Shown in pieces: positions 1 through 7,093 of a stretch of 64,000 nucleotides of DNA; the stretch's first letter is position 1; the number at the start of each line of letters is the position of its first letter. Location: NCBI GenBank assembly GCA_016285645.1, contig JAEERC010000064.1:1-64000 (forward strand). The letters run 5' to 3'. A program made the translations under genes and the position numbers. This DNA comes from Clostridiaceae bacterium (GTDB lineage: Bacteria; Bacillota; Clostridia; Oscillospirales; Acutalibacteraceae). Below the pieces are notes generated by a model. The model was not told the origin of the DNA, did no database searches, and worked only from the letters and a program-made list of their open reading frames with translations.

Positions 1-60
1 CGTCGTGGCCTCCTCCTCTGGGGGAGGTGGCACGGCGTAAGCCGTGACGGAAGGAGTCCG
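1..60. repeat. Left arm of inverted repeat flanking the DUF559 gene (may continue left of the window)
   Basis: cgtcgtggcctcctcctctgggggaggtgg...gacggaaggagtccg; its reverse complement matches 438-502 (outer 30 bp with 1 mismatch, inner 15 bp perfect, centres differ). Confidence 0.9.
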
Positions 61-61
61 T

Positions 62-430
62 ATGAATTTAAAATATAACGGAAGCCTGAATGAGAAAGCA
101 AAGGATCTCCGTAAAAACGCGACTCCGTGGGAAAACAAACTTTGGTATGAGTATCTGAACACCTGTGTACCACGGTTTCAGAGACAGAAGGCAATCGGTA
201 ATTACATAGTTGATTTTTATTGCGGCAAAGCAAAACTCGCCGTTGAACTTGACGGCGGCGGGCATTATGAAAAAGACAAACAGGCAAAAGATGAGTTAAG
301 AACGAAGCAACTTAACAGTCAGGGAATAACCGTAATCCGGTTTTCAAATTTTGAGGTTGACACAAATTTTTATGAAGTCTGCTCGGCAATTGACAATGCG
401 GTAAAAAGCAGGACCGGAAATGACAAATGA
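62..430 (+). CDS. DUF559 / Vsr-like PD-(D/E)XK endonuclease domain protein
   Basis: LRKNATPWENKLWYEYL...FQRQKAIGNYIVDFYCGKAKLAVELDGGGHY...VIRFSN is a typical DUF559 pattern; start chosen at MNLKYN with aaggag 5 nt upstream. Confidence 0.85.
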   Translation: MNLKYNGSLNEKAKDLRKNATPWENKLWYEYLNTCVPRFQRQKAIGNYIVDFYCGKAKLAVELDGGGHYEKDKQAKDELRTKQLNSQGITVIRFSNFEVDTNFYEVCSAIDNAVKSRTGNDK

Positions 431-437
431 TTTTGCG

Positions 438-502
438 CGGACTCCTTCCGTCTTGCTCACTTCGTTCGCAATCCACCTCCCCCATAGGAGGAGGCCACGA
501 CG
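438..502. repeat. Right arm of inverted repeat flanking the DUF559 gene
   Basis: cggactccttccgtc-ttgctcacttcgttcgcaat-ccacctcccccataggaggaggccacgacg, reverse complement of 1-60 except for the centre. Confidence 0.9.
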
Positions 503-641
503 GACGGAAGATTGTTCTTAAACAAGTACTGATATCGATGTTTATACTCGACAATTACTCATTACTCATTTCTCATTACTAATTAATTATTGCCTTCCGG
601 CTTTAATAAATATTGAAAATAATATGAGGGGGTTTTCCATT

Positions 642-1136
642 ATGCAAAAGATTCTCGCAAAACTGAATTCCTTAAAAAAGAACAGCAAAGGTTTTTCACT
701 CGTTGAGCTCATAATCGTCATAGCGATTATGGTTGCCCTTGTGGCAATGCTCGCCCCGCAGTTTGTAAAGTATGTTGCGAAATCACGCGACGCGGTTATC
801 ACCAGAGCTGCTGAGGACGTTCTTTCGGTTGCCAAATCGGAATATGCGCTCGGTCACCTTGTTGTTACCGGTTCATCCTCGGGTGAAATCCGTGTTCAGA
901 CCGATTCCAGAGGCAAACTGATAGTCAGAACAACCAATCTTGATTATGATGACGGAGAAGGTCACGGCAACACATTTGAAGACATGTGCGGCCTTGACGA
1001 AAACCAGGTTTCCAAGTCTGAAAAAGCTTATATAATAAGGATTGAAGCAGGCAATTTCACCTCAGGTGAAACTCAAGCTGTTTTCAGTGAAGAGGTTACC
1101 GACGGCGGTCACAGCGACCTTCCCGGCAATCCGTAA
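642..1136 (+). CDS. Type IV prepilin-like protein 1
   Basis: KGFSLVELIIVIAIMVALVAMLAPQFVKYV class III prepilin signal (G/F cleavage, E at +5); ATG 642 preferred over 624 because gaggggg lies upstream. Confidence 0.88.
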   Translation: MQKILAKLNSLKKNSKGFSLVELIIVIAIMVALVAMLAPQFVKYVAKSRDAVITRAAEDVLSVAKSEYALGHLVVTGSSSGEIRVQTDSRGKLIVRTTNLDYDDGEGHGNTFEDMCGLDENQVSKSEKAYIIRIEAGNFTSGETQAVFSEEVTDGGHSDLPGNP

Positions 1137-1170
1137 TTATAATTACGGCAGTTCCTTTCCACCCGCAAAC

Positions 1171-1198
1171 CCGTAGGGGCGGCAACCTGCCGCCCGCA
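1171..1198. repeat. Short palindromic intergenic repeat (taggggcggcaacctgccgcccgc)
   Basis: ggcggcaacctgccgcc palindrome; related copies near 2147-2175 and 31918-31940. Confidence 0.65.
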
Positions 1199-1208
1199 AA
1201 AACATAAA

Positions 1209-1310
1209 TGTCATTGCGAGGCAGTGCGCACACTGCCGCGGCAATCTCAAAAGGTAAATTCTCAAACGGGAGAATCCCGCGGCCGGCGAAACGCCTCCCT
1301 CGGAATGACA
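1209..1310. repeat. TGTCATTGCGAGG...CCTCGGAATGACA repeat element, copy 1
   Basis: tgtcattgcgaggcagtgcgcacactgccgcggcaatctcaaaagg...cggcgaaacgcctccctcggaatgaca, same family as copies at 7104-7886. Confidence 0.9.
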
Positions 1311-1489
1311 GCAAAAACACAGCAGTGAGAAAAACGGCAATCCGGGCGCGGAACAGGATAATAAACCGGCGAAGCCCCTTAATTGCTCATTGCTCACTTC
1401 TCATTGCTCATTAAATCGGATACACCCTTCCGCAACTAAGGGGGGAGCGGAGGGTTATCATAAAAAAATTTTATATGGAGGAAATCACA

Positions 1490-1966
1490 ATGTTATTCAT
1501 GAAAATGGCAAAAGCCCGCGAAGCTCGCAAAGATAACAAAGGTTTCTCACTTGTTGAGCTTATCATCGTTATCGCCATCATGGTTGCTCTTGTAGCAATG
1601 CTCGCACCTCAGTTCGTTAAATACGTTCAGAAGTCCCGCGACGCTGTTGTTTCATCAGCAGCAGAAGATGTTCTCGCAACAGCCAAATCCGAATTCGCGC
1701 TTACCCACCTGACATTCTCAGGCACTGGTGATGGTGTTATCACTATCAGCGTAGTTGACAAGCACCTCAATGTTGCTCTTACTTCAGGTCTTAATTTTGA
1801 CTCCTCGTCAACAACTGGCGCAGGTTGCACATTTGCTGAGCAGTGCGGTATTGACACTCAGAAGACCACACAGTCAACTCTCAAGTATGTCATCAACATC
1901 AAGAACAATGCGGGTTCACCCACATTCGAGATGGCTCTTGACAGCAGCGCAAGCACAGGTGGTTAA
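1490..1966 (+). CDS. Type IV prepilin-like protein 2, candidate major pilin
   Basis: N-terminal half nearly identical to prepilin 1; tatggaggaaatcaca SD before ATG 1490. Confidence 0.9.
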   Translation: MLFMKMAKAREARKDNKGFSLVELIIVIAIMVALVAMLAPQFVKYVQKSRDAVVSSAAEDVLATAKSEFALTHLTFSGTGDGVITISVVDKHLNVALTSGLNFDSSSTTGAGCTFAEQCGIDTQKTTQSTLKYVINIKNNAGSPTFEMALDSSASTGG

Positions 1967-2055
1967 TTTAACCATTAACATTTTTCTCTATTAAATCCAA
2001 TTAATCCCGAAAGGCGCGTGCCTTTCACAATTGATTGATCTAGATTAATATTTTT

Positions 2056-2084
2056 CGCCCCAACACACCCCCTTTGTTGGGGCG
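2056..2084. terminator. Strong GC stem-loop after prepilin 2 (partial terminator or mRNA stabiliser)
   Basis: cgccccaaca-caccccctt-tgttggggcg perfect 10-bp stem. Confidence 0.6.
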
Positions 2085-2200
2085 AGGATTAATCAATTAA
2101 TTCCGGATTCCAAATTCCGAATTCCAACGCAAAAACATTACCCCATCGCAGCGGCGACAACCTGTCGCCCGCAAAAGCAATCTCAAAGGAGAAAACGCCT

Positions 2201-2989
2201 TTGAAACAAGCACTTGACCTCATAATGGAAACGGCTCCATGGCTCGTTTACATAATAACTTTTCTTTTCGGCGTGGCGGTCGGCAGCTTTCTGAATGTCT
2301 GCATCTACCGTATTCCGAAACACGAATCCATCGTAACCGTGCCGTCGCACTGTATGAGTTGCGGCAAAAAACTGCACTGGTATGAACTTATTCCCCTTTT
2401 CAGCTGGCTTGCCCTCAGGGGTAAATGCCACGGCTGCAAAGCGAAAATCTCGGCGCAATATCCCGTAATCGAGGCGGCAAACGGTCTTCTGTGCGTGCTG
2501 ACCCTGTTTGTCAAGGGGCTGTCGGTCGATATGGTTCTCACGGCGGCGCTCGGCTCGGTTTTACTGGTTATTTCAATAATTGACGCGCGCACAAAAGAAA
2601 TTCCCTTCCCGCTTGTAATCGCGGTCGGAGTTCTCGGAGCGATAAGGCTGGTTTTTTACCACGAACACTGGCTGAATTCCATTCTCGGCGCGGTTGTAAT
2701 GGGCGCGCTGTTCCTCATAATCATCGTTGTCACGGGCGGGAAAGCCCTCGGCGGCGGCGATTTCAAACTTGTTATAGCGGCAGGGCTATTTGTCGGGCTT
2801 AAAAACTGCGTTATCGCGCTTTTCCTCGCGAGTTTTTTCGGCTCGGTAATCCACCTGACCCTTATGAAGGTAAAAAAGATGGGGCGCGAACTCGCCTTCG
2901 GTCCCTACCTCTCGTTCGGATTTTTCACTGTTGCCCTCTGGGGCGATAAACTGTTCGATTTCTACCTTAATATAATAGGTATTAAATAA
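2201..2989 (+). CDS. Prepilin peptidase (A24 family)
   Basis: FGVAVGSFLNVCIYRIPKHES, CxxCxxxLxWYELIPLFSW, GALGGGDFKL-like active-site regions; TTG start with aaaggag upstream. Confidence 0.92.
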   Translation: MKQALDLIMETAPWLVYIITFLFGVAVGSFLNVCIYRIPKHESIVTVPSHCMSCGKKLHWYELIPLFSWLALRGKCHGCKAKISAQYPVIEAANGLLCVLTLFVKGLSVDMVLTAALGSVLLVISIIDARTKEIPFPLVIAVGVLGAIRLVFYHEHWLNSILGAVVMGALFLIIIVVTGGKALGGGDFKLVIAAGLFVGLKNCVIALFLASFFGSVIHLTLMKVKKMGRELAFGPYLSFGFFTVALWGDKLFDFYLNIIGIK

Positions 2990-3068
2990 AGAAAACTATT
3001 AAGGTTATATAATACCTTTTTATATAAATATATCAGCGAACAAATAACTGGAAAAGGAATGATTAATT

Positions 3069-4664
3069 ATGGCGGCTAAGTTGTTAAACATCGAATGCGG
3101 AAAGCGTATATGTAAAGTTGCGGTTTCCGAAAAGAAAGGCAAAGCATATTCAATCAGCGATTGCTTTATGTTTGCCACACCCGAAGGCGCTGTAGTTGAC
3201 GGTCAGATCGTCAACCCGGTGGAACTCGGCGAAAAGCTCAAGCAGGAACTGAGCATGCACGTCATCACCTCGGGCAGCGTGATTTTCTCGGTAACATCAA
3301 CAAAGATTGCGACCCGTGAAGTCACCCTTCCGATTACGAAGGACGAGCAGTTCAAGAACGTCATCCGCACAAATATTTCGGACTATTTCCCGATTGACAC
3401 GTCCAAATATATTGTTGACACGATGATTCTTGAGAAATCCAAGAAGGAGACTCGCGCTCTCGTAGTAGCGATGCCCATGGCAATGAGCGACAGCTACACG
3501 ACTCTTGCCGACGCGGCGGGGCTCACTGTTGACTCAATCGACTTCAGCGGCAACTCACAGTTCCAGGTTCTCAAAGGATTCCAGGGCGACGGCGTCAATA
3601 TGTATATCTCAATTGACCCGGACTCCGCTTCCGTAATCTTTATGGAAAACGGCAGAATGCTTATGCAGCGCGCCCTTTCCGTAGGCGGCGACGAAATGAT
3701 CTGCCGCTATATGGCAACTCAGGAAATGATGGATGAGGACTATATCAAAGCCCTTCAGGAACTCAGCGTTTCCAAGGAGAATCCCGTTGCCATAGCGGAC
3801 ACGGAAGAATTCGGCGACTGCCTTTCAAGGCTTGTTACCGGCCTTTCGAGAAGCGTTGACTACCTGCATTCAAGCAGTGAGGAGAACGCCGAAAAGACTA
3901 TTGACAGAGTAGTTCTTATGGGCAGCTGCTGCCACCTTGCCGGCCTCAAGGAGCTTGTTGCGGATTCAATCGCCTCCTCAACCTACTGGCTTGAGGAAGT
4001 TCCCGAAATGCAGGGCCTTGCAAACAGCATCGAATCCATTTCGGTTTATATCAACTCGCTCGGCGCGCGTGTCGCTCCGCTCAACTTCCTTACCGATGAA
4101 TACCTCAAGAGAACCGGCAGAGCCGGCGGCAAGAAAAAGAGCAGTGCCGCTTCGCATTACGGTGTGCTTGTGTTTGTTGCGGGTCTGGTTATCGCGGGCG
4201 TTCTGTTCGGCATCAGCTATATGCAGAACAGAAGTCTCAACAACAACCTTACCGACATTGAAAAGAAAATCAACCGTCTTGAGTACGCTCAGGATACATA
4301 TAATTCCTACCTCGCCTATCAGAAGGGCGACAAAGAGCTGCAGGCATATGTTGACGGCAGCTTAAACAACAACGAAGGCCTTTACGCCTTCTTCACCGAG
4401 ATTGAAAGAAAGATGCCCACCGCCATCACAATGCTTTCGGCGGACTGCACAACAACGGGTGTTACAATGTCGGTTGAAGTTCCCACCTTTGATGAGGCGG
4501 AAGTTGTTATTTCCCAGTTCCGTTCGTTTGAATCAATAGATAACATCGTTGTCAGCTCAATATCCAAAACTGTTGACGACGCGGGTCTTGAAACTGTCGG
4601 CTTCTCAATTACCTGCACTTATGTAGTGCCCGAGGTTGAAGAGCAGGCAGCTGCGGAAGAATAA
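3069..4664 (+). CDS. PilM-like actin-fold protein fused to a PilN-like TM/periplasmic domain
   Basis: PilM-like N-terminal ~350 aa, then TM GVLVFVAGLVIAGVLFGISYM, coiled coil and PilN-like compact domain. Confidence 0.75.
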   Translation: MAAKLLNIECGKRICKVAVSEKKGKAYSISDCFMFATPEGAVVDGQIVNPVELGEKLKQELSMHVITSGSVIFSVTSTKIATREVTLPITKDEQFKNVIRTNISDYFPIDTSKYIVDTMILEKSKKETRALVVAMPMAMSDSYTTLADAAGLTVDSIDFSGNSQFQVLKGFQGDGVNMYISIDPDSASVIFMENGRMLMQRALSVGGDEMICRYMATQEMMDEDYIKALQELSVSKENPVAIADTEEFGDCLSRLVTGLSRSVDYLHSSSEENAEKTIDRVVLMGSCCHLAGLKELVADSIASSTYWLEEVPEMQGLANSIESISVYINSLGARVAPLNFLTDEYLKRTGRAGGKKKSSAASHYGVLVFVAGLVIAGVLFGISYMQNRSLNNNLTDIEKKINRLEYAQDTYNSYLAYQKGDKELQAYVDGSLNNNEGLYAFFTEIERKMPTAITMLSADCTTTGVTMSVEVPTFDEAEVVISQFRSFESIDNIVVSSISKTVDDAGLETVGFSITCTYVVPEVEEQAAAEE

Positions 4665-4682
4665 TAAAGGAGGTGTGCAGAA

Positions 4683-5507
4683 ATGGCAAAACAGGGTTCA
4701 AAGAAAAAACTTACATGGCGTGAGTATAACCTTATTCTCACGGTTTTAGGCATAGCGCTTGTTCTCGCCGCTTATTTCCTCGGCTATCAGAAATATTCCG
4801 AGCAGAACACCGCCCTTGAGACGGAAATCGGCACCCGCTCCTCATATCTCAATGAGCTGCAGGACTGCTTCAACAACGAGCCCACTTACAAAAAGGGCAT
4901 AGCGGAAGCAAAGGATAATATTCAGAAGAATATTGACAAGCTCCCCACCAAAGTCATCTATGATGAAGACTTCCTTCATTATCTCAGAGAGGCAAACAAA
5001 GCCGTCGGCGCAGACCTCCAGACGGTTGACTTCCAGTCCAGCGCGGTAGTAGCGGAATTCTCCTGCTTCGTTGACGGGCAGAACAAGAACATCAAGGGTT
5101 ACCGCACCGGCACAACCTCGGCGGGCACTCTCACCTACGCGCAGTTAAAAGAATATCTCAGATATGTTTATGAGAAAACCAGCCACACCACCTTTGTTGA
5201 TTCCATTTCCATCGTTTACGACCCCGAGGTGGCAAAGCTCAACTCAACAGTTTCCCTTTCCAAGTATTATGTAGATTACGAAGGCGCTGAATACAAGCCC
5301 GAGCAGAGACCCAATGTGGGTATCGGCACGAGAGATCCGTTCGGCACGGGCAGCACACCCGCACCCGCGGCTTCAACAACCGCTCCCGCCGCCTCCACAA
5401 CGGCTCCTGCCGCTTCAACAACCGCTCCCGCTTCAACCGCGGCTCCTGCCGCTTCAACAACCGCTCCCGCTTCAACCGCGGCTCCTTCATCCACGCAGGC
5501 AGCTTAA
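4683..5507 (+). CDS. PilO-like protein with Ala/Ser/Thr/Pro repeat tail
   Basis: Position after PilM/N, single N-terminal TM, coiled coil, PilO-like fold region, then (PAASTTA)n tail. Confidence 0.65.
   Translation: MAKQGSKKKLTWREYNLILTVLGIALVLAAYFLGYQKYSEQNTALETEIGTRSSYLNELQDCFNNEPTYKKGIAEAKDNIQKNIDKLPTKVIYDEDFLHYLREANKAVGADLQTVDFQSSAVVAEFSCFVDGQNKNIKGYRTGTTSAGTLTYAQLKEYLRYVYEKTSHTTFVDSISIVYDPEVAKLNSTVSLSKYYVDYEGAEYKPEQRPNVGIGTRDPFGTGSTPAPAASTTAPAASTTAPAASTTAPASTAAPAASTTAPASTAAPSSTQAA
5350..5505 (+). repeat. Low-complexity coding repeat (PAASTTAPAASTTAPASTA)
   Basis: Repeated gcttcaacaaccgctcccgcc units in the 3' end of the PilO-like gene. Confidence 0.9.
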
Positions 5508-5533
5508 ATCAACTGTTACAGGGGGAAAGCGCA

Positions 5534-7093
5534 ATGTTTAAAAAATTTCACAGCGGCAACAAGGGCTTTTCCCTTGTTGAACTGCTTGTGGCTATAGTTA
5601 TACTCGGCATTGCATCAAGCGCGGTTATTCACGCTTTTGTAACCGCTTCAAGAATCACCTCACAGGCGAAGGCCTTCGGCGAAGCGACCGGCGCCGCCGA
5701 CAATATCGCCGAGGCGGTTGACGCCTTCAGCAAGGACGGTTTCCTTTCGGGCGCGTTTGCCGATATGCTCGGCGTGTCTGTTGAAGAGGAATCCAACCAG
5801 GTGTTCAAGCAGGATGACTCCACGCTCGCAATCAAAAACTTAACCTCGGGTAACGCCGAATATGACGCGGTTGTCACCTATTCCGAGGGTGACCCCGATG
5901 CAGACCCGAATAATGAACTGGAAGCTGATGATTACGGTATTTATGAGATAAACAACTACGAGCTTGCTCAATATACCGCTATGGACGGCTCCTTCACCCA
6001 GTCTTATGTTGACGGTCAGAATCCCGATTATCTTTCCGATGTCGCTTTCTGGGACGAGGCGCTGAGCAACCACGCCTCTCAGATTCAGGATGACGGCACA
6101 CCCAAATATAAAGCCAAAAACCGCCTTATAAGCGTAAATGTCTATACCGATTCCACTGGTAAAATATATATGGATGTAGTCTATAACTATACCTACACCT
6201 ATTTTTACAAAGAATATGTCAATTCAATTGAAACCGGAAATGTTTTAACCGGCACTTATGTCTATACCTGGCAGAGCGCGGTCACCTTCAACCAGGGCGA
6301 TCCCTCCAAGTATGACCCGAGCGAGGGCAACGCGGAACCCACCGTATTCATAATGTATTATCCGGATTACGCCGCAAAATTATTTCCTGCGTATGAAAGA
6401 CGGCCTTACTATGAAATCGACGACGAAAGAACGAATATGACCGATTCATATTATGATCTCGCGGACTATTCCTATTCCGAAACCAACAAAATCAATTATA
6501 ACATTTCGTCTAATTACAGAGGCACGGACCTTATTGTAATCAACAACCTCGGCAATGTTCCCACCAAGTTCTTCATAGTCAAGCAGCGTATGGTTGATGA
6601 TGCTGGCATTCCCTGCTCAGATTCCGCAATCCAGATGGTTCCAAACCCTATAGCCAATGTCAATATGCCCGGCGAAGTCGCGGCTTCAAAGTCCTGTATT
6701 GTTGAAAGACTTACGGACACAGCCCTTTTAACCAACAAAAAAGCCAATATGGTTTATACCAACGCCGGTGTCAACCTTATTAACGATCAGACTTTTGCAA
6801 CGTTTAGGGGCTTTAAAATCGTAGGCGCGCAAGGTCCGGTGATTTCAGGTAATACAACTGCAAACGCTTATTTAAACAGTCAGGGTGAAGAGGATTATCT
6901 TAAAAACGACCTGGTTTCAACCGCCAAGGACCCAAGATATTTCAAAGTTACAATTGAAATTTATCCGGCAGGTTCGGTCGATACAGCCCAGGTTGCCGGC
7001 GGTCCCGAAAACCCGGATGAAGAGGTTCTTTATTCAATAAGCACCGTAGGTGCGTCACCGATTTATTCGTTCGTAGGTTCAAAACTTGAATAA
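5534..7093 (+). CDS. Large prepilin-like protein (type II/IV secretion N-methylation motif)
   Basis: NKGFSLVELLVAIVILGIASSAVIHAF N-terminus; 519 aa. Confidence 0.85.
   Translation: MFKKFHSGNKGFSLVELLVAIVILGIASSAVIHAFVTASRITSQAKAFGEATGAADNIAEAVDAFSKDGFLSGAFADMLGVSVEEESNQVFKQDDSTLAIKNLTSGNAEYDAVVTYSEGDPDADPNNELEADDYGIYEINNYELAQYTAMDGSFTQSYVDGQNPDYLSDVAFWDEALSNHASQIQDDGTPKYKAKNRLISVNVYTDSTGKIYMDVVYNYTYTYFYKEYVNSIETGNVLTGTYVYTWQSAVTFNQGDPSKYDPSEGNAEPTVFIMYYPDYAAKLFPAYERRPYYEIDDERTNMTDSYYDLADYSYSETNKINYNISSNYRGTDLIVINNLGNVPTKFFIVKQRMVDDAGIPCSDSAIQMVPNPIANVNMPGEVAASKSCIVERLTDTALLTNKKANMVYTNAGVNLINDQTFATFRGFKIVGAQGPVISGNTTANAYLNSQGEEDYLKNDLVSTAKDPRYFKVTIEIYPAGSVDTAQVAGGPENPDEEVLYSISTVGASPIYSFVGSKLE

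Follow-up and report, generated by a model that had tools for sequence, protein, structure and literature searches.

Can a nuclease gene that is enclosed by inverted hairpin repeats, and accompanied by no transposase, form a mobile unit of its own? The question is raised by positions 1-502 of the window (the whole stretch of 64,000 nucleotides that was analysed, from a clostridial genome), where a DUF559 gene of the Vsr/YcjD type, PD-(D/E)XK, lies between inverted hairpin arms (Table 1). The outer parts of the arms (1-30 and 473-502) are 97% complementary over 30 nt and the inner parts (46-60 and 438-452) are 100% complementary over 15 nt. The outer motif has 2 matches in the window and 0 in 100 shuffles, and within the window the exact occurrences of the inner 13-mer are the two arms only. 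Arms of this family, here called family A, are not simple palindromes: a C-tract/G-tract hairpin (hairpin 1, CCTCCTCC..GGGGGAGG in the left arm) is followed by TGG, a second hairpin (hairpin 2, CACGGC-GTAA-GCCGTG in the left arm) and ACGGAAGGAGTC. When folded as single-stranded DNA, the left arm has a z score of -4.1 and the right arm a weaker one of -1.9; an Rfam search of the region gave no match. The left end of the unit on contigs C66 and C67 begins [C/T]CGTCGTGG, and the right arm extends to about 511. The listed open reading frame of 128 aa starts at a GTG upstream of the ATG at 62; the coding sequence taken here runs from that ATG, 1 bp past the left arm, to a TGA at 430, 7 bp short of the right arm. 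The first-pass annotation had described inverted arms, a Shine-Dalgarno sequence carried by the left one and a DUF559 gene in between, and the complementarity, the coding coordinates and the PF04480 match all agree with it.

Table 1. Coordinates of the features of the DUF559 unit in the window
Feature	Position	Strand	Remarks
Left arm, family-A repeat	1..60	+	Hairpin 1, TGG, hairpin 2, ACGGAAGGAGTC
Shine-Dalgarno AAGGAG	51..56	+	Inside left arm; solo copies have AAGGAG too
DUF559 nuclease CDS, 122 aa, YcjD/Vsr-like	62..430	+	
Right arm, inverted family-A repeat	438..502	-	Hairpin 2 differs from left arm: TTGC..GCAA
Right arm outer end (GACGGA)	503..511	-	Common to the C61 copy and solo copies; by sequence comparison

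The encoded protein matches PF04480 (DUF559) with an E value of 5.8e-30 and 103.8 bits, against a gathering score of 20.6. Among 91 diverse sequences, D51, E62, D64, G65 and D77 are invariant or nearly so, and H68, R80 and R93 are conserved at 97-99% (a set of 48 sequences was also examined); by its score and its conserved catalytic D, E-x-D-G, H and D, the protein is thus a member of the PF04480/YcjD group. A structure model (pLDDT 90) matches the gonococcal protein NGO0050 (3HRL) and the catalytic domain of the homing endonuclease I-Bth0305I (3R3P, E 2.8e-5, TM 0.79-0.80 normalised by target), which is the nearest functionally characterised relative by fold. The similarity of the model to Vsr itself (1VSR) reaches TM 0.55-0.60, but with an E value of 0.39; by fold similarity, the protein belongs with the EDxHD/Vsr-like PD-(D/E)XK nucleases. 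The median dN/dS is about 0.10 over 59 close pairs, part of whose dS values are near saturation, and DUF559 is, judging from these alignments, under strong purifying selection. A role in defence was considered and rejected, the PADLOC matches being weak and to larger proteins, as was a phage origin, with just 2 phage records matching.

The window starts at the first base of its contig (C6) because the assembly breaks in a multicopy unit. Contigs C66 and C67 also end in the arm and the start of the gene, and C61 opens with the 3' half of the unit. With flanking genes named from translated flanks, the copy in the window lies between pilC (end of C66) and a pilin gene (C6 continues with prepilin genes), and the other copy, by elimination, between an MFS-type transporter gene (C67) and a transglutaminase-like gene (C61). 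Downstream of the element, the window carries two prepilin genes, a prepilin peptidase and further type IV pilus-like genes at 624-7093. The two copies differ at 8 positions in 402 bp (98% identical), and their left halves are identical. The 8-bp sequence ATTTGTTT, a possible target-site duplication, flanks both sides at C67|C61 and nothing comparable is found at C66|C6; a consistent duplication is thus not seen. Orthologous loci lacking the unit were searched for, as the first-pass annotation had proposed, and in three sister species (G015, G039, G007) the pilC-pilin site is a short spacer with no arm and no DUF559 gene; likewise, a solo arm in the mreC-mreD region is missing in G007. The same annotation had seen in the locus a minimal unit of arms plus nuclease without a conventional transposase, and this description stands: two near-identical copies occupy unrelated sites, arms and gene are cognate, and the genome yielded no Y1 (RAYT-type) transposase. 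Terminal inverted repeats, as in insertion sequences and MITEs, are present, but transposase models in Pfam, NCBIfam and PHROGs have no match inside the unit, in which DUF559 is the sole gene. A search for the Y1 transposase (PF01797) gave no match in this genome (G000) or in the repeat-carrying genomes G040, G042, G043 and G044, and a RAYT is ruled out as mover for this genome.

Besides the complete units, solo family-A arms of about 85 bp, REP-like in appearance, are found on contigs C36, C41, C48, C55, C58, C63, C66 and C71. Family A has 15 matches in this genome, 5 in two congeners and none in 42 of 45 congeners, with 0 matches for the reversed pattern. About 12 of the 15 are solos, which thus outnumber complete units; as in REP/RAYT systems, the copies are mostly solo palindromic repeats cognate to the flanks of the gene. 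Such copies could also arise by a homing-type drive, in which cleavage of an unoccupied homologous locus, or of a solo repeat, by the nuclease would let homologous repair copy the unit in, the arms serving mainly as homology or target and not as transposon ends. The predicted relationship to I-Bth0305I and a weak match to the PADLOC homing-endonuclease model point in this direction, and the literature places one DUF559 gene in the EDxHD homing family (PMC9403480). The likeness to EDxHD homing endonucleases and Vsr, however, lies in fold and active-site layout; the genomic setting is another one, with no intron or intein and no fixed target site seen. The unit is intergenic at two sites that are unrelated, without an Rfam match, and both copies have different flanks; units elsewhere occupy many unrelated intergenic sites, and the empty sites of the sister species hold no recognisable solo arm. 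Homing of this kind is therefore considered unlikely.

The genome contains a second DUF559 gene (on C58), which is framed by a different repeat, GACGGGTGTGGCGA, that also occurs as solos. Of the 54 repeats of this second kind (family B) in the genus, 8 fall within 250 bp of a DUF559 gene, against an expectation of 0.03; the reversed pattern gives a single match. The concern that arms might almost never neighbour a DUF559 gene needs qualifying: most family-A copies are solo, yet adjacency between DUF559 and repeats is far above chance. In hairpin 2, pairing is kept while the sequence varies: 38 of 43 variants form a stem of 3 or more pairs, and the first 4 nt of the stem take 4 different forms in family A and 8 in family B. 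Since hairpin 2 varies in sequence yet pairs, its structure seems to be preserved.

The association was measured on DUF559 homologues of the genus and of 80 loci in public genomes, with controls from the same loci. Inverted repeats at a score of at least 35 frame 35 of 80 DUF559 genes, compared with 1 of 1844 control windows, and 51 of the 80 genes hold the best-scoring position of their locus (4.2 expected). A poly-pyrimidine/purine hairpin lies within 200 bp on either side of 93 of 106 DUF559 genes against 37 of 283 control ORFs, and hairpins lie on both sides of 49 of 106 against 3 of 283, the control ORFs not being matched for intergenic length and related loci not being independent. The two arms of a gene resemble each other more closely than they do the arms of other genes: in 48 of 108 cases (5.4 expected) the partner arm falls within the top 5%. 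Arm similarity follows protein similarity (Spearman 0.315, permutation maximum 0.094), to which shared descent contributes. A significant inverted repeat is missing in about half of the DUF559 homologues. No arms were found at divergent or fused PF04480 proteins in other Bacillota, which limits the claim to the compact YcjD-like group.

These controls bear on two further explanations. The arms are GC-rich and homopurine/homopyrimidine, as might be expected if a gene near low-complexity GC-rich sequence had simply been annotated into an element; given the locus-matched controls, the reversed-pattern controls of both families and the purifying selection on DUF559, such an artefact, or chance proximity, is hardly credible. 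Alternatively, DUF559 would be a passenger of repeats that another transposase moves or that act as hot-spots of insertion. This genome does hold many other short repeats, and another repeat breaks up one of the family-A solos. A passenger gene is nevertheless very unlikely, with hairpins on both sides so rare among the other ORFs of the same loci, with arm similarity following protein similarity, and with no Y1 match in any of the five genomes named above, the genome-wide search having covered Y1 alone.

By analogy, the arrangement is that of a REP/RAYT system (REPtrons, REPINs) with a non-homologous enzyme. Both have short palindromic intergenic repeats with many solos, a gene of low copy number between inverted repeats cognate to it, lineage-specific families and several gene/repeat pairs per genome. 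The gene between the repeats, however, is PF04480, encoding a predicted Vsr-like PD-(D/E)XK nuclease in place of an HUH Y1 transposase, and the repeats have two hairpins and no GTAG tag. The anatomy, multicopy state, empty sites, cognate pairing of arm and gene, wide association and conserved active site are direct observations, and the unit is probably a small REP-like mobile element in which a YcjD-type DUF559 nuclease between inverted hairpin repeats takes the place of a transposase and spreads the repeats. The nuclease would be expressed from the ribosome-binding site built into the upstream arm, would recognise the hairpin repeats cognate to it in cruciform, single-stranded or triplex form, and would nick or cut at them. 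Repair or replication could then copy the whole unit, rarely, into new intergenic sites; single arms and arm pairs would be copied often, leaving many solo repeats per genome. We infer that the nuclease recognises and cleaves the arms and that this activity causes the spread; if the nuclease does move the repeats, a Vsr/homing-type nuclease on its own would account for their mobility.

Read outward from the gene, the window arms show a CGTC tag, a stem-loop and a CCA tail (e.g., CGTC-ACGGCTTACGCCGT-GCCA), as do CGTC-tagged REPs (Di Nocera 2013, PMC3733652). The pattern occurs in 27 upstream and 15 downstream flanks of 104, versus 0-3 for five altered tags and 12 and 6 for the reversed orientation. 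The stems here are mostly 4-7 bp, in contrast to the 8-9 bp of CGTC-tagged REPs, and an outer poly-C/poly-G hairpin is added. The 2013 survey concluded that a transposase is lacking for CGTC REPs, and a search of its text found no clostridial or Firmicutes families (PMC3733652). Beyond Clostridia, with proteobacteria and cyanobacteria included, similar repeats with C-tract/G-tract hairpins stand beside DUF559 genes in Sinorhizobium, Azospirillum, Sphingomonas, Shinella, Methylobacterium, Novosphingobium, N. gonorrhoeae, Photobacterium, Picosynechococcus, Synechocystis, Pseudanabaena, Deinococcus, Bifidobacterium, Smithella and Gastranaerophilales. Outside the main set, 17 of 19 records have the hairpins, against 1 of only 11 control ORFs.

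In E. coli, knowledge of BoxC/PIT repeats goes back to the 1990s, and hundreds of genomes contain them. Like the intrastrand-triplex repeats of the BoxC/PIT/TMECO group (Holder 2015, PMC4666352), the arms have a pyrimidine block, a loop, a purine block, a linker and a second purine block. Unlike in that group, the second purine block in the window is imperfect and set off by a hairpin linker, so the arms depart from strict triplex geometry, and on inspection of the sequence the BoxC consensus CCCTCNCCC N3-6 GGGNGAGGG N3 GGGNGAGGG is absent from the window arms. The 2015 study tied BoxC/PIT repeats to genome instability and found no mobility gene nearby (PMC4666352). In S. meliloti, a DUF559 gene lies between inverted pairs of the BoxC/PIT-type triplex motif, with the loop widened to 8 nt for the match, and in E. 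coli K-12 a single intact BoxC, an exact consensus match, lies about 165 bp beyond the stop of ycjD. The whole record of E. coli H240 contains 27 BoxC motifs, and by simple density the chance of such proximity to ycjD is <1%. The initial reading was too narrow in scope: the arrangement recurs across phyla with repeats of the BoxC/PIT and CGTC-REP types. No published link between DUF559 and such repeats was found in the open-access literature, subscription papers being outside the search.

The repeats may also be sites that a Vsr-like repair nuclease binds or processes in order to keep hairpin or triplex DNA stable, a caretaker or autoregulatory pair in which the repeats spread by other means. 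Strong purifying selection and the predicted Vsr-like fold would be consistent with this, as would the link of Caulobacter VsrA, a DUF559 protein, with DNA damage (PMC12907096) and the presence of the ycjD region in about 3,300 of 5,426 E. coli genomes. Against it, the gene itself stands between the arms, in a unit that is multicopy and has empty sites, and a given DUF559 gene is usually paired with an arm family of its own; a caretaker role is thus distinctly unlikely. Returning to the mobile element, the wide association suggests that the DUF559 family spreads a very common class of bacterial repeats that has no known mover. The broader proposal, that compact YcjD-type DUF559 proteins are the missing mobilisers of CGTC-tagged REPs, BoxC/PIT repeats and their clostridial relatives, a phylum-spanning class relying on a single Vsr-like nuclease and no transposase, has somewhat less than an even chance of being right. 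Such a link would give a function to a large family of "unknown function" and name a candidate enzyme, and the origin of the repeats would be testable in E. coli K-12.

Several candidates for clean empty sites outside the genus were rejected. In Azospirillum only the left boundary is clean and the right side is rearranged; the S. meliloti strain comparison is confused by ISRm16 and rearrangement; and for the gcvP-ygfF BoxC pair, the pair is absent from O157 EDL933 along with ygfF. E. coli strains without ycjD also lack its BoxC and carry eefRABCD instead (PMC12817139), which is a replacement and not a simple insertion; ycjD and BoxC occupy the fabI-sapF site (L136, L202, L203), where other lineages have this efflux operon. 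In E. coli H240 (L196-L200), BoxC occurs in inverted pairs, some with a related short spacer (such as GAACAGGCCGGCACTGGCGCGAA), resembling REPIN-like composite units. The DUF559 gene of an N. gonorrhoeae chromosome filed as a plasmid (L123) appears to be NGO0050, the protein of the solved structure 3HRL, and its flanking repeats are in direct orientation. On a Sphingomonas plasmid (L182), a DUF559 gene with an upstream arm lies between sufB and sufC, within an operon. In the clostridial genome itself, contigs (e.g., L005-L013) and the window at 1160-1200 abound in further short palindromes between genes (GGCACGGAAGAATCCGTGCCCTACG, GGCGGGCGGATGATATCCGCCCCTACG and the like), which bear no relation to the DUF559 arms. 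The interrupted family-A solo (L013, on C71, around 1070-1180) is split within hairpin 1, where a copy of another repeat (GTCTCGCCTGCCGGCTCGGTCGG..CGCAC), about 65 bp long, intervenes.
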